Positions 141-11,117 of a stretch of 11,117 nt of DNA are shown one piece after another (position 1 is the stretch's first letter; each line of letters begins with the position of its first letter). Origin of the DNA: Oscillospiraceae bacterium (lineage in GTDB: Bacteria > Bacillota > Clostridia > Oscillospirales > Oscillospiraceae); assembly GCA_017936205.1 (NCBI GenBank), contig JAGBGB010000117.1, forward strand, positions 1 to 11,117, read 5' to 3'. The notes beneath the pieces are model-generated. The model did no database searches. It was not told where the DNA came from and was given only the letters and a program-made list of their open reading frames with translations. The translations under genes and the position numbers were made by a program.

Positions 141-3100
141 TTAGCTTGCGAAGTAAGCCTTTGCACTGTCGCTGTAGGCAAAGAGGGCTCTGCACAGGGT
201 CAGCAGAATGCCGGTCCGTCCGTTGCCGTAGGTGTCGGCACTGTAGCGGAGGGTGGCAGAAACAGGGCTGCTGCCCTCATATACCGTAGCCTCCACAACG
301 GTGCGGAGCTCCGCTGCCTGCAAGCCGTCGAAGGTGAAGGCATACAAGCCGTCCTTGCCGTAGTCTTCGATCTGAGTTACCACAGCCTCTTGAGGCTGCC
401 CCTCTCCATCTGTGTAACGGATATGGAGGCTCAGTGCATCGGGAGCTCCCGTATAGCTGCTGAGATCCACGATGTACTTCAGACCGACCTTAGAGGTCAG
501 ATTCAGGGACTTGCCTGCAAAGCTAACCGTAGGTTGGGCTGCAGCAGGGATGGTCTCATTGATGTTTTGGAAGCTAACGGTTCCCAGATCGCTCATGAGC
601 ATCAGCTCTAAGAGGCTCATCTGTGCATCTGCAGGGGCATCTGTACGGTAGCCCTTGAAGGTCTGTGCCGCTGCACCGTATTGGAGCAGGTCTGCGCAGA
701 GGGTCTTCAGTGCCTGAGAGCTGCCCTCCTTGCGGAGCTGGGAATAGGCATAGGTAGCCACGCTGTAGGAATCTGTGACGGACAGGAACTGCTCCTCTCC
801 CTTGGTCATGTGCAGCTGTGCAAGAACGGTATCGTTCATCTGCACCGCAGTCATGCCGTCTAAGACGAAGTAGTACATACTGCCCTTGAGAACAGGCTCC
901 AGAACAAGGGTTTGTTCCCCTACATAGCTGTTGCCCTCGTACACAGGGATCCTGCACTCCATTCGGAAGCTGTCATAGTTCGCCAGCAGATCGGCGGCAA
1001 CCACATAGTTCACAGAAATATCTCCTGCCAGATTCAGGGTGTGACGGATCACCACTGCCTCGTCTACGGTAGGCTCAGGCTGTTCTGTGCTGCCGCAGAG
1101 GCAGCTGCCCTCTGTATAGCTGTGGGGCTCGGTCTTGGTCTTGCTGCAGCGGTCGCAGCGGACAAGGTGCTCTTCGCCCTGGTCCTCATAAATGGTGAAG
1201 CTGTGTCCCAGACGTGCTACAGGGATCTGCTCCTTCAGGATCTCACCGCACAGGCTGCACTGCTCTCCGTCGCTGAGTCCGGAGTTCAGGCAGGTGGCAG
1301 GAGTGCCGGGAACCACAACAGGAGTATGACCGCCCAGGGGCAGCTGGGTCTGCTCCTTCAGGATCTTACCGCAGACGCTGCATGCCTCTCCGTCGCTGAG
1401 ACCGTGGTTCATGCAATCAGAGGCCTTGCCGGGGATGGTCACGGGGCTGTGGGGGATCATGGGGATGTCCTGCTGTGCCGTAATGACCTCCTTACAAATA
1501 CTGCAGTGGGAGCCGTCGGTCTTACCCACAGCGGTACAGGTGGCAGCATAGCCCTTGTCAATGACGATGCTGTGCTCTGTCTTGGGAAGGGTCTCGCCCT
1601 TCTTGGTTACGGTGCCACAGTCCTTACAGACATAGTCCCCACTGTAACCCTCCTTGGAGCAGGTGGGGGCAACTGCGTTTTTCAGCTCTGTTCTGTGATC
1701 GGTCTTGGGCAGGGTCTCGGTATAGCTCCATCCGCAGGCGCAGGAGTAGGTCTCGATGCCGGTTGCGGAGCAGGTGGGCTCTTTGGTGACCTGGATCGTG
1801 AAGTCGTGGTATCCTGTCTTAAAGGCTGCGTAGACCTTCACATCGGAGCGGATGTTCTTCAGGTCGGCGGCATTACCTGCCTCATCTACCCAGCCGGTGA
1901 AGGTGTAATGTTTCTGCTGGTCGGAGGCCTTGGTGGGAGCCTCGCCGCTGTAAGATACCTCCTCACCCTCGGAGACGGTGAGGGTCTGCAGGACCTTTCC
2001 ATCCTCATCACAGAATGTGACGGTATAAATAGAGGCAGGAGCTTGATCCTTGGGCCCCATGTAGATGTAGTCTACCTCGAAGGTGCCGGACAGGGCATCG
2101 TTGGCCCCATTGGAAAGGGGATCCAAGCGGATACCGTTAACGGTCTGCCCTGCGAAGCTGTCGGGAATGGTCATGCGGATGGTCTGGTAGGTGTTGTCCT
2201 GCATGAAGATCTCGGTCAGATAGCCGCTTGCACCGTAGGTGGGCTTCTCCAGAGTCACGAAGAAGAATTCCATCTGATTATTGGACTTGCCGCCGGTTAC
2301 ATTGCTCTTCATGCGGATCTCCACCACATCCCCCTTCTGGATGCTGTAGAGGAAGCTGCCACGGGACTCTGCATAGGGGTCGCCGCCCTTGTAGGTTCCC
2401 TTGAGGATTCCTGCGGCAGTGTCACCTGTGACCGTACAGCTGTTGGTTACCCAGTTGCCGGTCTCGCACAGGGGGGCTTCCTTGTCGAAGTCTGCCAAGA
2501 GGAAGCGGCCACCACCCATGTGCTCCAGCTTGTTCTTGGGGGAATTGTTGGGTCTGCCTGCGTAGATATAGTCGATGGTATAGCCGCCCTTGAGGGGCTC
2601 ATTGCCACCTGCGGTAACGGGATCGATACGGATATTGGTCAAGGTATGTCCCACCATATTGGCAGGGAACTTCACATATGCCACCTGATACTCGCCTGTG
2701 GCATAGATGGGGAAAGCGAAGATCCTTTCGCCGCTGTAGCCGGGAGCCTTGTCTGTTGCGTAGAAGATCTCCAAGTGCCCTGCATTGCCGGAGGTAATGG
2801 TGGTCTTCATCCGAACCTCAAGAATATCGTCGCTCTTGATCTTCATACCGGGCATTCCCTCGGTGCACAGGAAGGGATCGCCGCCGAAGATATCCCCGTT
2901 CAGAGTGCCGTTGCTGTGGTTGACCAGAGCAGTGATGCTGTTGCCGCTCCAATTGTTGTTGGCACTCATGGGGCTGGAGGGAACGAAGTCCATGTAGACG
3001 AAGTCTCCGTTGCCCAGATAGTCCAGCTTGTTCTGGGGAGCGTTCTGAGGCTGACCGATGTAAATATAGTCAATGGCATATTTCGCCTTGAAATCATTGG

Positions 3101-4553
3101 AGCCGCCGTCGAAGAGGTCGATTCGGAATTGGCTGATGAACTCTCCCACCGCAGTAGCGGAGGAGGTGCTGAGGGCGAACTGCAGCACATTCCTGCCATT
3201 ATGGAACTGATGGGGAGTTCCCGCAAACATACGGTCTCCTGTAAAGTATCCTACGGTGTTGGTGGTGAAGAAGACCGCCGCAGTATTGGAGGCTGTGCCG
3301 GAGATGTGCTCATAGTCGAAGGCGATCTCCATAATGTCTCCTGCCTTGATCTTATACAGCACATCGAAGGCGGTCATGCGAACATAGGAGTCCGTGCTGG
3401 TCATGCCCTCAGAAGTCAGTGCGCCTAAGGTGCCGCTGAGATAGCCGTTGCCGGCAGAGGGATTGGGGCTGATGCTGGCACCGGAGGTGGCAATATAATG
3501 TCTCCAATTCCAGTTGGTCTCACGGCTGCCGGATTCGAATTCCAGAAGCATGCCGTTGGGATCTGTGTCATAGAGGTGATTGAAACAGCCTACGAAGTCC
3601 TCATTATTATAGTATCCGCCGCTGCTGCCTGCGTTAGCGATGAAGTACATTCTGCCGTTCACCGCATCCACACTCTCCACCTCGAGGAAGTACCAATAAT
3701 AGTTGGAGGTCAGGTAGATGGTATCTGACTGAAGGTTTTGCCGCAGATTTCCGTCTGCAAGATTGCTCAGATCATAGGCAATGATAAAGTTCTTGTTGCG
3801 GTAATCGAAATTGTTCGTCATAACGAAGTACAGACGACCATTGTTATAGGTCATGCCCTGAACTCCGTAAGAACCGGTGCCGCCGTAGCCGGGAGCCCCT
3901 GTGGGAACGGTGATACTATTATAATTCAGGGGACAGATGTACTTACAGGTCACACTGCCGCTGCCCTGATTGATCCCAATATCCATATAGAATACCATGG
4001 TGTTGATCGCACCCAGAAGTCTGACTGTGCCGTTTTGGAAGCTGTGAACAGTCAAAGCAACGAAGTTAATGGGGTTTGCACCGTCATTGATATCGTAGTA
4101 TGCTACACGGCGAACGGTGTTGCCGCTGACCTCTAACTTCCAGATGGTATGGGCGGAATACTCCGCATGACCCACATGGTACATGGTGGTCACATAGAGG
4201 TAGGTCTTGCCGTTGTAGGTCACAGCTGCCATATCGTTGCCGTGTCCCAGACCGTTGAGGACGCAGGTAGAGGTGTTGTCTGCGTTCACAAGAGCCACGG
4301 TTTGCCCTGTGTGGATGGAGGTGCGGTAAATGATTGCACTGTTGTAGCCGCCGGAAGGGGTCTTCAGAGAATAGACATAGTTCTCGTCCGCTGCCATGCC
4401 TTGAGTTGCTACATAGTCATTGGGCAAATAGCCGATCCTGGTGTAGCCCCCGTCGTTCAGATTATAGCCTGCTGCAGAGGCGACGACAGGGAGCAGCGTA
4501 CACAGCATGGCTATGATCAGTAGTCGGGAAAGTAATCTGTGCCATTGGTTCAT
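141..4553 (-). CDS. Large secreted multi-repeat surface protein
   Basis: A 1470-residue exported protein. Residues 1-27 are a signal peptide (basic N-terminus, LLIIAMLCTLLPVV core, AxA cleavage site ASA-AG). About 29-330 is beta-rich and propeller-like, with recurring strands such as VYSLKT, YLYVTTMYH and GRLYFVMTNN. About 334-840 holds three tandem modules, each closing with DYIYxG. Residues 843-913 resemble an InlB-type B-repeat (YTVTF, YTFTGW, YAAF). Residues 915-1154 are Cys/His repeats. From about 1165 a domain is present twice. No LPxTG or C-terminal membrane anchor is visible, so the anchoring mode is unknown. The start is fixed by GGAGG seven bases upstream and by the signal peptide. 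It is transcribed divergently from the operon. A binding or adhesive role at the cell surface is inferred; no catalytic motif was recognised. Confidence 0.93.
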   Translation of the reverse strand: MNQWHRLLSRLLIIAMLCTLLPVVASAAGYNLNDGGYTRIGYLPNDYVATQGMAADENYVYSLKTPSGGYNSAIIYRTSIHTGQTVALVNADNTSTCVLNGLGHGNDMAAVTYNGKTYLYVTTMYHVGHAEYSAHTIWKLEVSGNTVRRVAYYDINDGANPINFVALTVHSFQNGTVRLLGAINTMVFYMDIGINQGSGSVTCKYICPLNYNSITVPTGAPGYGGTGSYGVQGMTYNNGRLYFVMTNNFDYRNKNFIIAYDLSNLADGNLRQNLQSDTIYLTSNYYWYFLEVESVDAVNGRMYFIANAGSSGGYYNNEDFVGCFNHLYDTDPNGMLLEFESGSRETNWNWRHYIATSGASISPNPSAGNGYLSGTLGALTSEGMTSTDSYVRMTAFDVLYKIKAGDIMEIAFDYEHISGTASNTAAVFFTTNTVGYFTGDRMFAGTPHQFHNGRNVLQFALSTSSATAVGEFISQFRIDLFDGGSNDFKAKYAIDYIYIGQPQNAPQNKLDYLGNGDFVYMDFVPSSPMSANNNWSGNSITALVNHSNGTLNGDIFGGDPFLCTEGMPGMKIKSDDILEVRMKTTITSGNAGHLEIFYATDKAPGYSGERIFAFPIYATGEYQVAYVKFPANMVGHTLTNIRIDPVTAGGNEPLKGGYTIDYIYAGRPNNSPKNKLEHMGGGRFLLADFDKEAPLCETGNWVTNSCTVTGDTAAGILKGTYKGGDPYAESRGSFLYSIQKGDVVEIRMKSNVTGGKSNNQMEFFFVTLEKPTYGASGYLTEIFMQDNTYQTIRMTIPDSFAGQTVNGIRLDPLSNGANDALSGTFEVDYIYMGPKDQAPASIYTVTFCDEDGKVLQTLTVSEGEEVSYSGEAPTKASDQQKHYTFTGWVDEAGNAADLKNIRSDVKVYAAFKTGYHDFTIQVTKEPTCSATGIETYSCACGWSYTETLPKTDHRTELKNAVAPTCSKEGYSGDYVCKDCGTVTKKGETLPKTEHSIVIDKGYAATCTAVGKTDGSHCSICKEVITAQQDIPMIPHSPVTIPGKASDCMNHGLSDGEACSVCGKILKEQTQLPLGGHTPVVVPGTPATCLNSGLSDGEQCSLCGEILKEQIPVARLGHSFTIYEDQGEEHLVRCDRCSKTKTEPHSYTEGSCLCGSTEQPEPTVDEAVVIRHTLNLAGDISVNYVVAADLLANYDSFRMECRIPVYEGNSYVGEQTLVLEPVLKGSMYYFVLDGMTAVQMNDTVLAQLHMTKGEEQFLSVTDSYSVATYAYSQLRKEGSSQALKTLCADLLQYGAAAQTFKGYRTDAPADAQMSLLELMLMSDLGTVSFQNINETIPAAAQPTVSFAGKSLNLTSKVGLKYIVDLSSYTGAPDALSLHIRYTDGEGQPQEAVVTQIEDYGKDGLYAFTFDGLQAAELRTVVEATVYEGSSPVSATLRYSADTYGNGRTGILLTLCRALFAYSDSAKAYFAS
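190..1060 (-). repeat. Duplicated C-terminal domain of the surface protein
   Basis: Residues from about 1165 and from about 1340 to 1470 look like two copies of one domain. Copy A has TLNLAGDISVNYVV and later SVATYAYSQL followed by LKTLCADLLQYGAAAQTF. Copy B has SLNLTSKVGLKYIV and later SADTYGNG followed by LLTLCRALFAYSDSAKAYF. Each thus has a beta part followed by a helical Leu-Cys-Ala segment. I recall similar C-terminal pairs in large secreted clostridial proteins but cannot name the family. A cell-surface attachment role would fit the missing sortase signal, as an inference. Confidence 0.6.
1092..1811 (-). repeat. Cys/His-rich tandem repeats within the surface protein
   Basis: Residues 915-1154 contain about five full and one or two partial repeats. 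Each has a leading Cys (PTCS, ATCT, SDCM, ATCL), a CxxC pair about 12-16 residues later (CKDC, CSIC, CSVC, CSLC; the first is CAC), and a His at the repeat boundary. Two units are recent copies at DNA level: the string CTGCTCCTTCAGGATC starts at 1227 and at 1350, a period of 123 bp or 41 residues. The Cys/His pattern could bind metal or form disulphides; which one cannot be told from sequence. Confidence 0.8.
2049..3554 (-). repeat. Three tandem ligand-binding-like modules of the surface protein
   Basis: Residues about 334-840 contain three modules spaced by about 166 residues. Each starts near a G-x-hydrophobic-DF/EF strand (MLLEF, FVYMDF, FLLADF), passes a stretch like KAGDIMEI, SDDILEV or KGDVVEI, and ends with (I/V)DYIYxG. 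Modules 1 and 2 are followed by the linker P-x-NKL. The spacing and beta-strand pattern suggest a jelly-roll or galactose-binding-like fold of the carbohydrate-binding kind. The fold and ligand are inferred, and the copies have diverged strongly. Confidence 0.7.
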
Positions 4554-4560
4554 ATGAATT

Positions 4561-4565
4561 CCTCC
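4561..4565 (-). promoter_or_regulatory. Ribosome binding site of the surface protein gene
   Basis: On the minus strand GGAGG lies 7 bases before the ATG at 4551-4553, an ideal distance. It supports this start and the signal peptide that follows. Confidence 0.88.
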
Positions 4566-4588
4566 TATTATAAAATAAATCTATTATT

Positions 4589-4616
4589 ATTATACATATT
4601 TTACACACTAAAGCAA
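4589..4616 (-). promoter_or_regulatory. Sigma-A promoter of the surface protein gene
   Basis: On the minus strand TTGCTT (4611-4616) and a perfect TATAAT (4589-4594) are separated by 16 bp. The expected transcription start near 4582 gives a leader of about 29 bases, which contains the GGAGG site. No other clear promoter was seen for this gene. Confidence 0.75.
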
Positions 4617-4692
4617 GAAAAACTTTACATTTTCTTCAAAAATCGTTCCGCATCAAAGCCACAGCACGCCCTTCTCCCCAAAACACCCGAAC

Positions 4693-4894
4693 TTCCGATT
4701 TATCGTACCATTCGTAGGGGCGCGCATTGCGCGTCCGACAACCACCAAGAATTGGTGGTTGTGAAAAATGTTTCGTTTTTTGGAGAAATTACATCATTTT
4801 CGGAGGTTTTTGTGTTCATGGCGTTACGCCATGAACCGGACGCGCAATGCGCGCCCCTACGAAGGGGTAAATCAAACTGTTCGACAAATCGGAA
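4693..4894. repeat. Compound palindromic (MITE/REP-like) element
   Basis: Two perfect 27-bp inverted arms (4711-4737 and 4837-4863) each contain the CGCGCAATGCGCG-type core. Just inside the left arm is a perfect 11-bp hairpin with arms 4738-4748 and 4752-4762. Just inside the right arm is another (GTTCATGGC at 4814-4822, GCCATGAAC at 4828-4836). The region between them, 4763-4813, folds only weakly. A second outer inverted pair, TTCCGATTTATCG (4693-4705) against 4882-4894 with one mismatch, extends the symmetry. There is no coding content, so it resembles a non-autonomous element mobilised in trans, or a BIME-type repeat. Confidence 0.75.
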
Positions 4895-4908
4895 TTTGAT
4901 TTTGGGTC

Positions 4909-4945
4909 GTGGGCAATTCCTGGGATTGATTGTGGGCAATTCCTG
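4909..4945 (+). repeat. 14-bp direct repeats upstream of the operon promoter
   Basis: GTGGGCAATTCCTG occurs exactly at 4909-4922 and 4932-4945, a period of 23 bp. The second copy ends 9 bp before the -35 box. The place and period of about two helical turns suggest a site for an activator or other regulator of the operon. This is inference; a small local duplication is the alternative. Confidence 0.5.
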
Positions 4946-4954
4946 TGCTGGTTC

Positions 4955-4983
4955 TTGACTTTTAATTTACTGAATTGTATAAT
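4955..4983 (+). promoter_or_regulatory. Strong sigma-A promoter of the five-gene operon
   Basis: TTGACT (4955-4960) and a perfect TATAAT (4978-4983) are separated by 17 bp, close to full consensus. The expected transcription start is about 4990-4992, which coincides with the first in-frame ATG of the next gene (4992). It is the only promoter seen for the operon, whose genes overlap or nearly touch. Confidence 0.85.
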
Positions 4984-4991
4984 GAAAAGAA

Positions 4992-6536
4992 ATGCGGTTT
5001 TTAGCGGAAAGGCTGAGAGATAGCTTGGAAAGAACGGTATTGGAGTATTTGGAACAGACTGCCCGAAGGCTCCCGGAGGGGATCGCCTTTGCGGATGAGG
5101 AACGGGAGCTTTCCTTCCGAGAGCTGGTGCTGCGTGCGAAGGGCATCGGCTCTGCCTTGCTTTGCAAAAATGGGCTTACCACTCGTCCTGTGGCAGTGCT
5201 GACAGGGCGAACCGTGTACAGTGTAGAGGGCTACATGGGTGCGCTCTATGCAGGCTGCTGCTATGTGCCTGTGGATGCTGCTATGCCTCCACAGAGAATG
5301 ATGGATATTCTGGAACAGATCCAACCGGCGGCACTTCTCTACGGTCCCAAGGAGGAGAAGGTGCTGGGCAAGATCACAGTCAACTGCCCTGTCTTAGAGA
5401 TCGGGGAAGCTGCAGCCCATCCACTTGTTACAGATTTGCTGGATACCGTCCGAAGCCGCTGCCTGGATGTGGATCCTGCCTATATGATCTTCACCTCCGG
5501 TTCCACCGGGAAGCCGAAGGGGATCCTGATCTCCCACCGCAGTGTTATGGACTTTGCTCAGTGGTATGAGGACATTACCGGTGTGACCCATGAGGATCGG
5601 CTGGGCAATCAGGCACCCTTCTTCTTTGATTTGTCGGTGAAGGATCTGTATCTGACCCTGAAGACCGGGGCAACAACCTATATTTTGCCGAAAAAATGCT
5701 TCCTCTTCCCGAAGCTACTGGTGGAGCTGCTCAACGAGAAGAAGATCACCACCCTGTCTTGGGCAACGGCTGCCTTCCATATGACAGCCAATTCCGGGGT
5801 TCTGGAAAAGTATCAGCCTTTATATTTGAAACGAGTTTTGCTTGGGGGCGAGGCTCTGCAAGCTAAGCAGCTGAATATCTGGCGCCGTGCTCTTCCCGAT
5901 GTACAGTATACCAACTTGTACGGTCCTACGGAGGTGACCGTGGATTGCACATGGTACCCCATTAAGAGAGAATTTACGGATCAGGAGCCCATTCCCATTG
6001 GGAAGGCTTGTGCCAATAAGGAGGTTATGATCCTCAATGAGGAGGATCGGCTCTGCACCGTTGGGGAGCCGGGGGAGATCTGTGTCCGTGGCTCCGGTCT
6101 TGCCATTGGCTATTATGGAGATGGGGAGAAGACGGCGCGTGCTTTCGTGCAGAACCCCCTGAACCCCCTGTATCCCGATCGGATGTACCGCACAGGGGAT
6201 ATCGGAATGCTGACGGAAACGGGAGATATTCTGTTCTTATCAAGGAAGGACAGCCAAATCAAGCACATGGGCTACCGCATCGAGCTGGGGGAGATCGAAA
6301 CTGCTCTCAATGCTCTCCCCGGCATCCGAGCTGCAGTATGCTTGTTCCATAAGGAGCAGGATAAGATCTTAGCTGTGTATGAGGGGGAGATGGCCGCTGC
6401 CGAGCTGGCAAAGGGGCTTATGACTGCGCTGCCCAAGTATATGCTGCCCTCTGACTATCATGCTGTGAAGGCCCTGCCCCGACTGCCCAACGGCAAGCTG
6501 GATCGCAGCCGCTTGAAAGAGGAATACCTATGCTGA
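4992..6536 (+). CDS. AMP-forming amino acid:carrier protein ligase (DltA/NRPS adenylation type)
   Basis: A 514-residue cytoplasmic adenylating enzyme, predicted to activate a carboxylic acid with ATP and load it onto the phosphopantetheine of the carrier protein encoded two genes downstream. Motifs in order: P-loop FTSGSTGKPKG (167-177), NQAPFFFDLSV with the amino-group-binding Asp213, LLGGEAL (283-289), NLYGPTE (308-314), YRTGD (399-403), GYRIELGEIE (427-436) and PNGKLDR with catalytic Lys502. Asp213 points to an amino acid substrate. Where DltA has FCGE, with the Cys linked to D-alanine selectivity, this protein has LGGE, as in many NRPS domains, so D-alanine is not certain. The ATG at 4992 sits at the predicted transcript start; TTG at 5025 (residue 12) is an alternative that fits the DltA N-terminus better. 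The gene overlaps the next by 7 bases. Confidence 0.9.
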   Translation: MRFLAERLRDSLERTVLEYLEQTARRLPEGIAFADEERELSFRELVLRAKGIGSALLCKNGLTTRPVAVLTGRTVYSVEGYMGALYAGCCYVPVDAAMPPQRMMDILEQIQPAALLYGPKEEKVLGKITVNCPVLEIGEAAAHPLVTDLLDTVRSRCLDVDPAYMIFTSGSTGKPKGILISHRSVMDFAQWYEDITGVTHEDRLGNQAPFFFDLSVKDLYLTLKTGATTYILPKKCFLFPKLLVELLNEKKITTLSWATAAFHMTANSGVLEKYQPLYLKRVLLGGEALQAKQLNIWRRALPDVQYTNLYGPTEVTVDCTWYPIKREFTDQEPIPIGKACANKEVMILNEEDRLCTVGEPGEICVRGSGLAIGYYGDGEKTARAFVQNPLNPLYPDRMYRTGDIGMLTETGDILFLSRKDSQIKHMGYRIELGEIETALNALPGIRAAVCLFHKEQDKILAVYEGEMAAAELAKGLMTALPKYMLPSDYHAVKALPRLPNGKLDRSRLKEEYLC

Positions 6537-7318
6537 GCCCTGTTACGAGCTATGAGGAGCTTTCTAAGGCACTCAATACCCTCCTGCTCCAAGGGGTCGT
6601 TATCAATGCACTGCCTAATCGGGAGGCATTGGAGCAGGAGATCCGCAGAGGGAGCCTGTACCAACAGCAGATCTCTGAGGGGCTGTTGCTGATCCGTAGA
6701 AGGGAAACCTTGGATCGTCTGACCTTCTTGATCAAGAAGGGACAGAGCCTGCCCCTATGGGAGCCGGAGAGGAATACAGTGGTGGAATTGCCCTTCCGCA
6801 ATGCCTTGGGAGCCATGGAGGAGATTGAAGCTGCTTTTTTGGCGACAGGCTTCCGTGAGATTCTAAGCAGACTTCGCCTGAGTCGAAAGGGAACGGAAGA
6901 CGTCAGCTTCCCTCAGGGGGCGGTCCGTCTGTGTGAGGACGCTCAAGCTGCCTGCAGGCTGCTTTGTGAGAGCTTTTCTCCCATTACAGGCTGTCTGCCT
7001 GAGGAGGGAGAGCTTGCAGAGCTGGCGAAACAGGGGAAGCTCCTGAGCCTGCCCGGTGGGATCCTCCACTACGAAAGCAGCGGAAAGACCACGGAGCTCC
7101 GCCATCTGGCAGTGGCTCCGACTCACCGCCGACAGGGTCTTGGGGCTCTGCTGGTGGGCGCATATTTAAATCAACAGGGAGAGAAGCTCTCCCGTGTATG
7201 GACAGCAGTGGAGAACCTGCCTGCCCGAAGGCTCTACGAGCATTTCGGCTATGCTGCGGATGGTTGGCAGTCTCATGTGCTGTATTATTCTAAAGAAAGC
7301 AAGGAAGAAAGACCATGA
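6530..7318 (+). CDS. GNAT-family N-acetyltransferase
   Basis: A 262-residue soluble protein. The C-terminal half is a GNAT domain: ELRHLAVAPTHRRQGLGALL (189-208) contains the acetyl-CoA pyrophosphate loop RRQGLG (200-205), followed by ENLPARRLYEHFGYA (228-242), the usual GNAT end motif. Residues 1-125 match nothing I recognise; they could be a degenerate GNAT half or a substrate-binding domain. Typical single GNATs are about 150-180 residues, so the protein is long for the family. AAAGAGGA lies six bases before the ATG, and the gene overlaps both neighbours (7 and 4 bases), which implies coupled translation. A place between ligase and carrier suggests that it acetylates the amino group of the activated acid or of the aminoacyl carrier, but its substrate is not shown. 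Canonical dlt operons have no such gene. Confidence 0.82.
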   Translation: MLSPVTSYEELSKALNTLLLQGVVINALPNREALEQEIRRGSLYQQQISEGLLLIRRRETLDRLTFLIKKGQSLPLWEPERNTVVELPFRNALGAMEEIEAAFLATGFREILSRLRLSRKGTEDVSFPQGAVRLCEDAQAACRLLCESFSPITGCLPEEGELAELAKQGKLLSLPGGILHYESSGKTTELRHLAVAPTHRRQGLGALLVGAYLNQQGEKLSRVWTAVENLPARRLYEHFGYAADGWQSHVLYYSKESKEERP

Positions 7319-7542
7319 AAGAAAAGCTTTTGGCAATTTTATCCGAAGCCTGCCCTGAGGTAGATTTCGAAACCGAGACAGCCCTGATCGATGACGGTCT
7401 GCTGGAATCTCTGGATATTGTGATGATCGTTACGGAGATCATGCAGGAATTCGGCGTGGAGCTGACTGTAGATGATCTGCTGCCGGAGAACTTCAACTCC
7501 GTAGATGTTCTTCTGGCTCTTATTGAAAGCAGAACGGCATGA
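7315..7542 (+). CDS. Acyl/aminoacyl carrier protein (DltC-like)
   Basis: A 75-residue acidic helical protein, the usual length of DltC and free carrier proteins. DDGLLESLDIV (26-36) carries the phosphopantetheine attachment Ser32 at the start of helix 2; DltC proteins have a closely similar DSLD or DSMD motif. Helix 2 continues to EFGVEL, and LLPENFNSVDVLLALIE forms the C-terminal part. AAGGAAG lies seven bases before the ATG. The start overlaps the GNAT stop (ATGA) and the stop overlaps the MBOAT start (ATGA). The protein would be loaded by the ligase and deliver its thioester to the MBOAT at the inner face of the membrane. A phosphopantetheinyl transferase must be encoded elsewhere. Confidence 0.92.
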   Translation: MKEKLLAILSEACPEVDFETETALIDDGLLESLDIVMIVTEIMQEFGVELTVDDLLPENFNSVDVLLALIESRTA

Positions 7543-9095
7543 ATTTCTTTTCTCTATCCTTCCTGCTGATGCTGGCGGGAAGTCTGCTGCTGTACTATGT
7601 GGTGCCGTTGAGGCTGCGCTGGTATGTGCTGCTGGGGGTCAGCCTTGGCTTCTACCTCTTAGGCGGTGTCAGTGCAGGGCTGTTCCTCTTGTTCACAGCG
7701 GGGACCAATTATGCAGGGGGGCTGGTGCTGAGCCGCTTGAATGCCAAACGGGCGAGCATCCCTGCAGAACGAAAAAAAGAAGAGGAGCAGAGGATCAAAA
7801 GCCATAAAAGATGGGTTTTGATCCTGGATCTGCTTCTCAACTTCGGTCTGCTTTTTATGGTGAAGTATTGGAACTTTACCGTGCAGAGTCTGAGTGGTCT
7901 GGTAGGAGCCCTGCCGACTGTGGATTGGATCATGCCTGTGGGCTTGAGCTTCTATATGTTCCAGAGTGTGGGCTATGTGGTGGACTGTTACCGTGGCAAG
8001 TATGCTGCGGAGAAGAATTTCCTGAAATTCAGCCTCTTCGTGTCCTTCTTCCCTCAGATGGTGCAGGGCCCCATTAGCCGCTTCGACCAGCTACAGCCTC
8101 AGCTGATCCAAGGGCACAAATGGAATGCTGACCATGTGAAGTACGGCATTCAGCTTGCTCTCTGGGGCTATCTGAAGCGGATGCTGTTGGCGGATCGTGC
8201 AGCGGTGGTGGTCAATGCCATCTTCGATGCGCCGGAGCAGTACGGTGGCTTCTTCTATGCCTTCGGGGTGCTGTTCTATTGTATCCAGCTTTACTGTGAC
8301 TTTAGCGGCGGCATCGACATTACCCGTGGTGTGGCACAGATGTTCGGCATTGACTTGGCGGAGAATTTCCGCAGACCCTTCTATGCTACCAGTCTGGCAG
8401 ATTACTGGCGAAGATGGCATATTACGCTGGGCTCTTGGATGCGGGATTATGTGTTCTATCCGCTGTCTTTTTCGAAGCCCTTTGCAAAGCTGGGACGTTG
8501 GGCACGGAAGCACTTTAAGGGCAAGGTGGGTAAGGTAATTCCTACCGCTGCCGCTACCTTTGTGGTGTACCTGATCATCGGTATATGGCATGGAGCCAAT
8601 TTCCGTTACATTGCCTACGGTTTCTACAACGGTATTATTTTGACTTCCTCCGTGCTTCTGGCAGGGACTTACGCCAAGTGGAAGAAGGCTCTGCATATTC
8701 GAGATAAGAGTCCCTTCTTCACCCTGTTCTGCATACTGCGGACTACGGCAATTGTATTCGTGGGCCGCTATATTACCCGTGCCCCCAGACTGCTTCTGGG
8801 ACTGCAAATGCTGAGGAAGACCCTGACCTCTCCCTGCCTGTATCAGCTTGGGGACGGAACCATTTGGAATCTTGGGCTGAGCCTGACAGATTATCTGGTG
8901 GTTGCACTGGGCTTCCTTGCCATGCTCTGTTTGGAATGGAAGCAGGAGAAGGGGACGGAGATCCGAAAAACCCTGGAACGGAAGCACCCCTTTGTCCAGT
9001 GGCTCTGGCTATTCCTGCCCCTGGTGCTGCTGTGCATCTTCGGGATCTTCCGAGACAGCGGCATTCAGGTGGAGTTTATTTATCAACAGTTTTAA
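7539..9095 (+). CDS. MBOAT-family membrane acyltransferase (AlgI/DltB type)
   Basis: A 518-residue multi-pass membrane protein. Family signatures in order: FFPQMVQGPISRFDQLQPQL (170-189), YCDFSGGIDI (252-261), RRPFYATSLADYWRRWHITLG (278-298) with His294, and IIGIWHGANFRYIAYGFYNG (346-365) with the expected catalytic His351. The length fits AlgI/PatA (about 500) better than DltB (about 400). The extreme C-terminus is VEFIYQQF, which resembles the C-terminal motif of the DltX microprotein proposed to relay D-alanine on a Tyr; here that would be Tyr515. Predicted role: transfer the carrier-bound group through the membrane to the extracellular partner encoded next. The start overlaps the carrier stop (ATGA) without a strong ribosome site, so translation is probably coupled. 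Confidence 0.93.
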   Translation: MNFFSLSFLLMLAGSLLLYYVVPLRLRWYVLLGVSLGFYLLGGVSAGLFLLFTAGTNYAGGLVLSRLNAKRASIPAERKKEEEQRIKSHKRWVLILDLLLNFGLLFMVKYWNFTVQSLSGLVGALPTVDWIMPVGLSFYMFQSVGYVVDCYRGKYAAEKNFLKFSLFVSFFPQMVQGPISRFDQLQPQLIQGHKWNADHVKYGIQLALWGYLKRMLLADRAAVVVNAIFDAPEQYGGFFYAFGVLFYCIQLYCDFSGGIDITRGVAQMFGIDLAENFRRPFYATSLADYWRRWHITLGSWMRDYVFYPLSFSKPFAKLGRWARKHFKGKVGKVIPTAAATFVVYLIIGIWHGANFRYIAYGFYNGIILTSSVLLAGTYAKWKKALHIRDKSPFFTLFCILRTTAIVFVGRYITRAPRLLLGLQMLRKTLTSPCLYQLGDGTIWNLGLSLTDYLVVALGFLAMLCLEWKQEKGTEIRKTLERKHPFVQWLWLFLPLVLLCIFGIFRDSGIQVEFIYQQF

Positions 9096-9096
9096 C

Positions 9097-9102
9097 AGGA
9101 GG
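9097..9102 (+). promoter_or_regulatory. Ribosome binding site of the SGNH-deacetylase fusion gene
   Basis: AGGAGG ends 5 bases before the ATG at 9108. It is the only perfect site inside the operon and marks this ATG as the start rather than Met7. The last gene may therefore be translated independently and more strongly than the coupled upstream genes. Confidence 0.85.
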
Positions 9103-9107
9103 TACCC

Positions 9108-10955
9108 ATGGAAGGGAATGCTCGTATGTCCTCTGCTCGTTGGCTCCGGATGCTGCTGGGGACGGTGCTGCTCATTGCACTGCTCATAGCCCTGTTTAAC
9201 TATCTGACCGATCCCTATGGGGTCTTCGGAGATCGGGTTTTTCAGTGGTGGAGCTATAATGAGACCTTGAATCCCCGAGCTGCCAAAATGGCATACCTGA
9301 AGCAGCATCATGGGGAATATGATTCCTATATTGTGGGCTCCTCCGGTTCCAGCTCCTATCCGGTGGAGGAGCTAAACGAGTATTTGGATGCTCGCTTCTA
9401 TAACTGCTTCTTCTATGGCACGGATATGGCAGATTTTGAGAAGATCAGCAACTATCTGATCGAGAACTATGAGGTCAAGAACCTGCTGCTGAACCTGTCC
9501 CTCAAGATCGCCTGTGCCTATGATACGGAGCAGGAGGAACGGACCACCTATCACTACTACGAGGTGGACGGAGCCAACCCACTGCTTCGCAGTATGCCAT
9601 ACCTGTTCAATACCCCCGCTGACGGTTGGAAGAAGCTGCAGAGCTACTACTCCGACGGCTATTTGCAGGTTCCCTACAGGGTTTTTGATGAGACCACCGG
9701 CTCCTATGATAAGAGCCGAAGGGATGCAGAGCCCATTGGGGATCGTGCATCCTATGTGGCAAGGGATGCCTATTCCGTCTTCACCAAGTATCCTGTCCGC
9801 AGTGCCTCTATGCCGTCTCTGGAGCAGGCGATGGAGAGCGTAGCTCGGATCAAGGCGCTGTGTGAGGAGAAGGGGATTCGGCTCATCGTTGCCTGTCAGC
9901 CTGCTTACTGGGAGGCACAGGATGATTTCAGCGTAGAGGATCAGGCTCGCTTCCGTAATGCTCTGGCGCAAGTGACGGAGTATTGGGATTTCACCATGAG
10001 CTCTGTCAGCTATGAGCCCCGATATTTTTACGACGATACTCACTTCCGCAACAGCGTAGGCTCTATGGCTCTGGCACGGATCTTCGGCAATGAGGAGCTG
10101 TATGTGCCGGAGGACTTCGGGGAATTCGTTCCCTTAGGCTCTATGCCAGGAGCTCCTGTGGCAGAGCCTGTGGGGGAGGAGGTACTGAACCGTCAGATCC
10201 CCATCCTTATGTACCATCACCTGACGGAGGATCCTGCCAAGGTAAATAACGATACGGTTCAGGTCAAAACCTTCCGTGCCCATATGGAGGCTCTGAAAAA
10301 TGCAGGCTATGAGCCTGTGAGCTTCTTGGATCTGAGAGACTTCGTAGAGAAGGGGACTGCTCTGCCGGAGAAGCCTGTGGTCATTACCTTTGACGATGGC
10401 TATACCAGCAACTATGAGCTTGCCTTCCCCATTCTGAAGGAATACGGCTTCAAGGCTACGATCTTTGCCATCGGTGTTTCTATCGGTAAGGATAGCTATA
10501 AGGATACAGGGGTCCCCATGAATCCCCACTTTACCTTGGAGCAGGCTGCGGAGCTGGAAGCCTCCGGACTCATTACCGTTGCCAGCCACGGCTATAACAT
10601 TCATGAGGTAGAGGGACGGGATCCGGCTCCTGTCCGCATCGGTGTACTGCAGAAGGAGGGAGAGTCTGAGGAGGACTATGTAGCCTTCCTGCAGGAGGAT
10701 CACAGAACCATGCAGGGCCTCTTGGGGGACTCTGCCAATATTGTATCTTACCCCTACGGAGCTCACACGGAGCTCAGCGAGGTGGTGCTGTCCCAAATGG
10801 GTGCCTATGCCACCGTGACCACTCAGCCTAAGCTGAACACCATAGTCAAGGGTCTGCCCCAATCCCTCCGACAGCTTGGTCGCTTCCGTGTTACCGATGA
10901 CCAGAGTGCGGAGCAGCTCCTGTCCATGATCGCCATAGAGGCGGTAACGGAATAA
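9108..10955 (+). CDS. Membrane-anchored SGNH/AlgJ-like domain fused to a PgaB/IcaB-type polysaccharide deacetylase
   Basis: A 615-residue protein, predicted extracellular apart from one N-terminal membrane segment (about 14-32, after a basic start). Residues 33-335 resemble DltD/AlgJ/AlgX-type SGNH proteins: NYLTDPYGVF after the membrane, YIVGSSGSSS (74-83) as the nucleophile block with Ser78 or Ser79, and YDDTHF (308-313) as the DxxH block (Asp309, His312). About 362-615 is a carbohydrate esterase family 4 domain: IPILMYHHL entry, TFDDGY (427-432) with Asp429 and Asp430, ASHGYNIH (492-499) with His494 and His499, and SYPYG (547-551). The His-to-His spacing of five matches PgaB/IcaB poly-N-acetylglucosamine deacetylases rather than the HxxxH of peptidoglycan deacetylases. 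Predicted to accept the group from the MBOAT and to deacetylate an extracellular glycan. The partner polymer is unknown. Confidence 0.88.
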   Translation: MEGNARMSSARWLRMLLGTVLLIALLIALFNYLTDPYGVFGDRVFQWWSYNETLNPRAAKMAYLKQHHGEYDSYIVGSSGSSSYPVEELNEYLDARFYNCFFYGTDMADFEKISNYLIENYEVKNLLLNLSLKIACAYDTEQEERTTYHYYEVDGANPLLRSMPYLFNTPADGWKKLQSYYSDGYLQVPYRVFDETTGSYDKSRRDAEPIGDRASYVARDAYSVFTKYPVRSASMPSLEQAMESVARIKALCEEKGIRLIVACQPAYWEAQDDFSVEDQARFRNALAQVTEYWDFTMSSVSYEPRYFYDDTHFRNSVGSMALARIFGNEELYVPEDFGEFVPLGSMPGAPVAEPVGEEVLNRQIPILMYHHLTEDPAKVNNDTVQVKTFRAHMEALKNAGYEPVSFLDLRDFVEKGTALPEKPVVITFDDGYTSNYELAFPILKEYGFKATIFAIGVSIGKDSYKDTGVPMNPHFTLEQAAELEASGLITVASHGYNIHEVEGRDPAPVRIGVLQKEGESEEDYVAFLQEDHRTMQGLLGDSANIVSYPYGAHTELSEVVLSQMGAYATVTTQPKLNTIVKGLPQSLRQLGRFRVTDDQSAEQLLSMIAIEAVTE

Positions 10956-11040
10956 TACTGTTTCTTGATAAAATGTTTTGAAAACCATTTTATTGCAGGA
11001 TGAATATCCTGCACCGCCTATGGCGGCAAGAACAGTATTA
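10953..11040. repeat. Cloverleaf-like structured element, complete
   Basis: An outer stem pairs TAATACTGTT (10953-10962) with AACAGTATTA (11031-11040) and CTTG (10964-10967) with CAAG (11027-11030), with one bulged T. It encloses three adjoining hairpins: ATAAAATG/CATTTTAT (10968-10993), TGCAGGAT/ATCCTGCA (10994-11013) and CCGCC/GGCGG (11014-11026). No base between the stems is unpaired, giving a compact four-way junction. The outer stem begins within the TAA stop of the preceding gene. It may be a structured 3' end, a processing or stability element, or a mobile palindromic repeat. It has no tRNA sequence signatures. Confidence 0.8.
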
Positions 11041-11117
11041 CAGGTTATTTCTTGGCGGCTTTGCCGCCATGCCGCTTACCAGCGGCATAATAAAACGGTT
11101 AATCCGTTTTATTAGAA
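11041..11117. repeat. Second cloverleaf-like element, inverted and cut by the window edge
   Basis: A presumed outer arm CAGGTTATTTCTT (11041-11053) is followed by three adjoining hairpins: GGCGGC/GCCGCC (11054-11068), TGCCGCT/AGCGGCA (11070-11087) and TAATAAAACGG/CCGTTTTATTA (11088-11114). The window ends at GAA, which could begin the return arm. The order (GC-rich, medium, AT-rich) is the mirror of the preceding element, and the AT-rich hairpin matches the reverse complement of the first element's with a paired T-to-C and A-to-G change. It is probably a related copy in the opposite orientation. Confidence 0.65.

Follow-up and report, generated by a model that had tools for sequence, protein, structure and literature searches.

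Acylation of envelope polymers by MBOAT proteins is described in excerpts of PMC12148441 as following one of two schemes. The Dlt scheme is fed by a carrier protein and uses a separate shuttle microprotein, DltX; the other MBOAT-SGNH pathways are fed by acyl-CoA, lack a carrier and bear a shuttle hexapeptide on the MBOAT's own C-terminus. A clostridial MBOAT-SGNH pair, CcsH/CcsI, is reported in PMC7710045. Here, we analyzed an 11,117-nucleotide (nt) stretch of DNA (the window), which is the whole of contig JAGBGB010000117.1 from the fragmented genome of an Oscillospiraceae bacterium (GCA_017936205.1; 2.46 Mb, 72.5% complete). The window contains a five-gene operon that combines the carrier of the Dlt scheme with the shuttle of the MBOAT-SGNH scheme and a transferase joined to a deacetylase. 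We estimate at about 0.65 the probability that this operon encodes a self-contained system in which a carrier-activated acyl group decorates an extracytoplasmic glycan. A first-pass annotation of the same DNA had already proposed such an acyl group, which would fit export by a pair of the MBOAT/DltD type. The operon and its functional sites are as follows.

4955-4983, forward strand: sigma-70-like promoter TTGACT-17-TATAAT, with 11 of 12 consensus matches
4992-6536, forward strand: aminoacyl ligase (DltA-like adenylation enzyme), with its probable true start at TTG 5025 and pocket residues DLKSLGLVDK
6530-7318, forward strand: tandem GNAT, with an R200xxG203 loop and a conserved Y236 in the second half
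7315-7542, forward strand: 75-residue carrier protein, with phosphopantetheine site Ser32 in DDGLLESL
7539-9095, forward strand: MBOAT acyltransferase of 518 residues, with His351 in WHG
9075-9092, forward strand: C-terminal acyl-shuttle hexapeptide FIYQQF with Tyr515, following the motif FXYXXF given in the excerpts of PMC12148441
9108-10955, forward strand: membrane-anchored SGNH(DltD-fold)-CE4 fusion of 615 residues, assigned by domain search and predicted fold
9273-10142, forward strand: SGNH/DltD-fold domain of the fusion (residues about 56-345), with Ser79, Asp309 and His312
10176-10943, forward strand: CE4 domain of the fusion (PgaB/IcaB/PplD fold; residues about 357-612), with His370, Asp429, Asp430, His494 and His499

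The five co-directional open reading frames (ORFs) were assigned in this order with Pfam and NCBIfam models. The first three junctions are overlaps of 7, 4 and 4 nt; the single operon annotated earlier therefore stands, but the junction between the MBOAT and fusion genes is a 12-nt gap rather than an overlap. The five genes form an intact operon and not a chance arrangement, because the identical gene set and order recur in dozens of genomes. The single strong promoter claimed in front of them was found and is the best of six sites in the region 4540-11117, but 5.2 sites are expected there by chance.

The following chemistry is what we infer from the parts observed here, with their arrangement, recurrence, catalytic residues and predicted folds. 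The ligase would adenylate an amino acid and load it onto the Ser32-linked phosphopantetheine of the carrier, as is the logic of its family. The tandem GNAT would acylate (in the simplest case acetylate) the amino group of this residue, either once it is carrier-bound or shortly beforehand, which would leave a neutral and more stable acyl group. The MBOAT would move this group from the carrier to Tyr515 of its own FIYQQF shuttle, as the motif and work on PatA and Dlt suggest, and from the shuttle the group would pass to Ser79 of the DltD-fold domain and then onto a surface glycan, at a hydroxyl (or amine). The CE4 half would strip N-acetyl groups from N-acetylhexosamine residues of the surface glycan independently of acyl transfer. 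In other species, the terminal module is reused, seemingly with a glyceryl donor, alongside an FkbH-type protein with its own carrier and its own MBOAT. The Dlt pathway adds positive charge; a neutral end product (N-acyl-aminoacyl or glyceryl), if that is what is made, would set the present system apart, and it would then be the CE4 half that supplies free amines.

A scan of named genome contigs returned at least 486 relatives of the fusion, the best 80 of which were annotated. All five genes lay together, as ligase-GNAT-carrier-MBOAT-fusion, in 44 of these 80 loci, which answers the search for co-location suggested in the first-pass annotation. Eight loci had ligase-carrier-MBOAT-fusion without a detected GNAT, although one of them (L178) has a divergent GNAT that was recognised by reading the ORF and not by the search. 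The order MBOAT-fusion-carrier-FkbH was found in 13 loci, to which L151, with FkbH and MBOAT, can be added. The others were partial (L155, ligase-GNAT-carrier; L113, GNAT-carrier-MBOAT cut at the contig end; L153, carrier-MBOAT) or had an MBOAT only (five), a carrier only (L182) or none of these genes (five). A ligase thus stood beside the fusion in 53 of the best 80 loci, 46 of the 53 having a GNAT, and FkbH replaced the ligase in 14; no locus among the best 80 had a ligase and FkbH together near the fusion. The hosts were Bacillota by title, except that of L132, which is titled "uncultured bacterium"; the named hosts include Ruminiclostridium hungatei, Agathobaculum butyriciproducens, Peptoniphilus stercorisuis and Anaerosphaera multitolerans.

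We also surveyed 200 genomes of the window's bacterial family, its own genome included, and found the fusion at full length in a single stretch in 21. The other 20 family fusions were accompanied by a ligase in 11 cases (8 with GNAT; 3 without, L036, L037 and L052), by an FkbH-type protein in 6 and by neither in 3 (L047, L051 and L053). A tree of 79 fusions, of a quick kind with 21 of 76 inner branches below 80% support, required two changes in the ligase/FkbH label and three changes in GNAT presence among ligase loci.

The ligase is an amino-acid adenylation enzyme (TIGR01733, 349 bits against a cut-off of 317). Its true start is probably TTG 5025 rather than ATG 4992, because the promoter lies too close to the latter; LERTVLEYL at TTG 5025 aligns with the MQTNVLEYL-type starts of relatives. 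The pocket residues vary among relatives. Glutamate was considered as the substrate, since DLKSLGLVDK comes closest to a glutamate code (DAKDLGVVDK), and was dropped because the lysine is common to most sister ligases. The GNAT matched PF00583 above the cut-off; its second half holds R200xxG203, presumably the acetyl-CoA loop, and the conserved Y236. The carrier matched PF00550 (PP-binding) above the cut-off, and its Ser32 is intact.

The position of the GNAT gene bears on when the enzyme acts. One alternative is that its substrate is the free amino acid or a sugar precursor, so that it would work ahead of loading and leave the carrier untouched. We regard this as unlikely, since the GNAT gene lies between those of the ligase and the carrier in 45 of the 46 loci with a GNAT match, the ligase of the 46th (L113) being cut off, and since another amino-acid-editing enzyme fills the same slot in three sister cassettes. 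These sister cassettes (L084-L102) are 19 loci of the window's bacterial family in which a ligase and an MBOAT occur but the fusion does not. A carrier was detected in all but L085 (18 of 19), and a GNAT in only two (L090 and L091); the proposed link of the GNAT to the gene set thus held for ligase-linked fusion loci but not for ligase cassettes lacking the fusion. A pyridoxal-phosphate (PLP) decarboxylase occupies the GNAT slot in three (L096:1650-2891, L097:8482-9660 and L098:8415-9599); the domains, searched for L096 and L097, are of the LysA/TIGR03099 kind and fall below those cut-offs. This gene suggests that the cargo of L096-L098 has been decarboxylated to a beta- or gamma-amino acyl group. 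Because the slot holds a GNAT in fusion operons and a PLP decarboxylase in three sister cassettes, it seems to be a place for enzymes that modify the amino acid cargo of the carrier. In the window, the GNAT may N-acetylate this cargo.

The donor itself also seems to be exchangeable, because the fusion occurs beside either a ligase or FkbH, so that one terminal fusion would be served by two donor chemistries. Two of the FkbH-type proteins were searched and scored 281 and 277 bits against an FkbH cut-off of 147. FkbH with a stand-alone acyl carrier protein (ACP) is proposed to make glyceryl-ACP in the excerpts of PMC7489565. The FkbH loci have a carrier of their own and an MBOAT from a separate branch that shares about a third of its residues with the window MBOAT.

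Near the 14 FkbH loci (including L164 and L176), we observed a GT2-GtrA gene in 6 of 14, an unassigned protein of 638-686 residues in 7 of 14 and a phosphopantetheinyl transferase in 6 of 14, the last also near the ligase-type locus L144; domains were assigned from one or two members of each. These genes may point to the acceptor glycan.

The MBOAT matched PF03062 (55.4 bits against a cut-off of 27). It ends in FIYQQF despite the carrier gene in its operon; the first-pass annotation was right to place an MBOAT in a Dlt-like set, but the protein is not plainly DltB-like, having a shuttle of its own of the PatA/AlgI type. Among 70 complete MBOATs adjoining fusions, the tyrosine at the shuttle position was present in 69, the exception (L151) being read out of frame; F.Y..[FY] was found in 59 and the strict FXYXXF in 43. 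The strict motif also ends the MBOAT in 13 of the 19 sister cassettes, and the hybrid of a carrier and a built-in shuttle therefore extends beyond the fusion operon. Serving as a control, three canonical DltB genes of the bacterial family (two from the window's genus), encoding 377-381 residues, were found to lack the shuttle motif. The operon junctions leave no space for DltX, as judged from listed ORFs of at least 60 residues and with no search made for DltX.

These data also bear on the view that the operon is a plain Dlt system, which would put D-alanine on (lipo)teichoic acid, the GNAT being unrelated to this task and the deacetylase a fused passenger. DltA, DltC and DltB are among the best NCBIfam models of the ligase, carrier and MBOAT, and the transferase domain aligns with DltD structures. 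However, all scores lie well below the cut-offs: 279.2 of 559.85 (DltA, TIGR01734) and 288.9 of 476 (PRK04813) for the ligase, 17.9 of 52.35 (DltC, TIGR01688) and 29.1 of 68 (PRK05087) for the carrier, and 152.7 of 375 (DltB, TIGR04091) for the MBOAT. Gene order and architecture also differ from those of the canonical loci L184-L186 of the bacterial family, which have a ligase, a DltB of 377-381 residues without a shuttle, a carrier-sized gap and a protein of about 400 residues (presumed to be DltD, but not searched). A canonical DltB scored above the cut-off in 6 of the 200 family genomes. The first-pass annotation had asked whether a canonical dlt locus accompanies the operon; two of the six (G097 and G185) also hold a ligase-type fusion operon, and G138 has canonical DltB together with an FkbH-type fusion. 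None was seen in the window's own genome, which is 72.5% complete. On family scores, gene order and co-existence, we rejected canonical Dlt identity, and the plain Dlt view as a whole is improbable.

The fusion is the most distinctive part of the decorating system that we favor. Its CE4 domain matched PF01522 above the cut-off, with the CE4 fold and catalytic residues present by alignment and predicted structure, which bears out the PgaB-like deacetylase domain of the first-pass annotation. The N-terminal SGNH part had no Pfam match at E<=0.01; however, its predicted fold aligns with DltD structures, and Ser79, Asp309 and His312 correspond to the SGNH Ser/Asp/His of a predicted extracytoplasmic partner. 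This part is also homologous by profile to separate SGNH-like proteins: 17 of the 19 sister cassettes (not L090 or L091) have a separate protein of 315-380 residues after the MBOAT, and 12 of these, aligned, matched it with an hhalign probability of 97.8 (E 9e-13), the nucleophile and Asp/His motifs being in register.

Two side observations concern these separate proteins. In 7 of the 12 (L084, L087-L089, L092, L094 and L095), the nucleophile motif reads GDC instead of GDS, and a cysteine nucleophile is possible in these SGNH-like transferases. In L100 (2439-5810, minus strand), three consecutive genes of 366-374 residues, alike in size and N-terminus by eye, follow one MBOAT, which perhaps serves several SGNH-like transferases.

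Catalytic residues were compared in 79 aligned fusions, comprising the window and 78 of the 80 loci; L141 (cut at a contig end) and L155 (its fusion reading stops after 46 residues) were left out. Ser79 was kept in 74 and lost in L108, L132, L159, L166 and L182. All five losses fell among the 12 rows without donor genes and none among the 67 with them (Fisher p 3.5e-5, uncorrected for kinship). A row was counted as lacking donor genes if neither a ligase nor FkbH nor a GNAT was seen over about 5.5 kb on the upstream side and 2.5 kb on the downstream side; an MBOAT or a carrier is present in some of the 12. Two of the five loci lie near contig ends; with untruncated loci only, the counts were 3/6 against 0/67 (p 3e-4, again uncorrected for kinship). 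Asp309 was lost in L132, and His312 in L132 and L182. In the CE4 half, Asp429 was invariant (79/79), and His370, Asp430, His494 and His499 were each kept in 78/79, L128 always being the exception. In the L128 fusion (3892-5709), which is accompanied by a GNAT, all tested CE4 residues except Asp429 and Pro549 are changed and the SGNH triad is intact; it may be regarded as a natural deacetylase knock-out. Because Ser79 was lost only where donor genes are lacking and CE4 residues were lost in L128 with SGNH intact, the two activities look separable, the transferase going with the donor genes and the deacetylase being kept without them. GNAT and CE4 are independent of one another, and neither is missing from nearly all related operons, as would have told against the proposed gene set (GNAT, 46/53; CE4 residues, 78/79).

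L182 (the same locus as L051) is decayed, with a Ser-to-Pro change in the carrier, Ser79 and His312 lost, CE4 intact and no ligase or MBOAT seen. Genes of the cysteine synthase, aminotransferase and ornithine cyclodeaminase families adjoin its carrier and fusion; the diaminopropionate cargo at which they hint was dropped because of this decay.

A bolder view of the fusion is that of an acyl-exchange enzyme, in which CE4 would free the amine of N-acetylglucosamine (GlcNAc) and the DltD half would put a carrier-derived acyl group (N-acetyl-aminoacyl in one branch, glyceryl in another) there. Its logic parallels that of heparan-sulfate N-deacetylase/N-sulfotransferase, and, if true, the cell could choose which acyl groups take the place of the N-acetyl groups on a surface glycan. 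The loss of SGNH with CE4 kept, and of CE4 with SGNH kept, speaks against obligatory coupling, although the halves may still be coupled where both are intact, and we consider this view improbable. Very improbable is a protect-deprotect cycle, in which a cap added by the GNAT would protect the amino acid during export and CE4 would take it off outside. One operon does hold acetyl-adding and acetyl-removing enzymes; however, the CE4 residues are intact in 14 FkbH loci and 7 GNAT-less ligase loci, none of which should have a cap to remove, and L128 has lost them although it has a GNAT. The cycle was rejected, CE4 being conserved where no GNAT exists. It is equally hard to believe that the carrier pathway makes a small secreted metabolite and decorates no polymer, for although adenylation enzymes, carriers and GNATs are also natural-product parts and the ligase's best PDB matches are nonribosomal peptide synthetase domains, an MBOAT with a shuttle and an SGNH partner is the signature of envelope polymer acylation in the excerpts of PMC12148441, and neither the ORF list nor the domain search of the window showed a condensation or thioesterase gene.

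Regarding the acceptor of the proposed decoration, a glycan synthase had been suggested as a companion, and we searched for that of poly-N-acetylglucosamine (PNAG). PgaC/IcaA (TIGR03937) was above the cut-off in none of the 200 family genomes, with weaker matches (E<=1e-30) in 10, and the window's own genome, 72.5% complete, had not even a weak match. PNAG was therefore judged unlikely as the acceptor. No conserved glycan-naming neighbors of the ligase-type operon were found among the best 80 loci or among ten flanking proteins in four cultured strains. PplD-like action on the GlcNAc of a wall-polymer linkage unit offers one acceptor candidate.

Two further features lie outside the operon. A MITE-like inverted repeat at 4708-4866 has 30-nt arms that are 97% complementary and 99 nt apart; the arm motif has 114 + 116 genome copies at up to two mismatches (reversed control, 0), and the repeat is therefore a very high-copy small element. 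A protein of 1470 residues with a signal-like N-terminus is encoded at 141-4553 on the minus strand, divergent from the operon, and gave a sub-threshold List-Bact repeat match only.

If the proposed decoration is right, envelope polymers of common gut Firmicutes bear acyl groups that have not been looked for so far. The gene set is seen in many gut and anaerobic Firmicutes, and the cultured A. butyriciproducens and R. hungatei make the system testable. We found no description of the gene set or of a DltD-CE4 fusion in open-licence PMC papers (judged by title and the first lines of the abstract, in a collection with no preprints and few subscription articles), in line with the earlier remark that this is not known as a described system. 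Each part is of a known kind; apparently undescribed are their combination, the hybrid layout, the seemingly exchangeable donor and the joining of DltD to CE4.

The tandem GNAT recalls mycothiol synthase MshD, with 13% identity and 26.6 bits against an MshD cut-off of 163. The CE4 domain has the fold and catalytic residues of PgaB, IcaB and PplD, but is fused to an acyltransferase, and the window fusion remains below the PgaB/IcaB cut-offs (TIGR03938, 122.1 of 321.9; TIGR03933, 56.3 of 248.35). The sister loci, not the window, share an FkbH-carrier pair with the glycerate-utilisation operons of tetronate antibiotics described in the excerpts of PMC7489565; there the pair feeds polyketides, whereas in the sister loci it adjoins an MBOAT and the DltD-CE4 fusion. 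With PatA/PatB, AlgI/AlgJ/AlgX and CcsH/CcsI, the window shares an MBOAT with a C-terminal FXYXXF and an extracytoplasmic SGNH partner. Pairs of the PatA/PatB type use an acyl-CoA donor and lack a carrier, according to the excerpts of PMC12148441, whereas the window encodes a ligase and a predicted carrier with an intact serine. With the Dlt pathway, it shares an adenylating ligase, a small carrier and an MBOAT, together with a putative SGNH transferase whose predicted fold resembles DltD. However, the window order is ligase-GNAT-carrier-MBOAT-transferase, with scores below all tested Dlt cut-offs, and the shuttle, which Dlt places on DltX, is fused to the MBOAT, with a GNAT and a CE4-fused transferase in addition. 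The added enzymes would edit or replace the carried acyl group: the GNAT here, the PLP decarboxylase in sister cassettes and FkbH for a glyceryl group.

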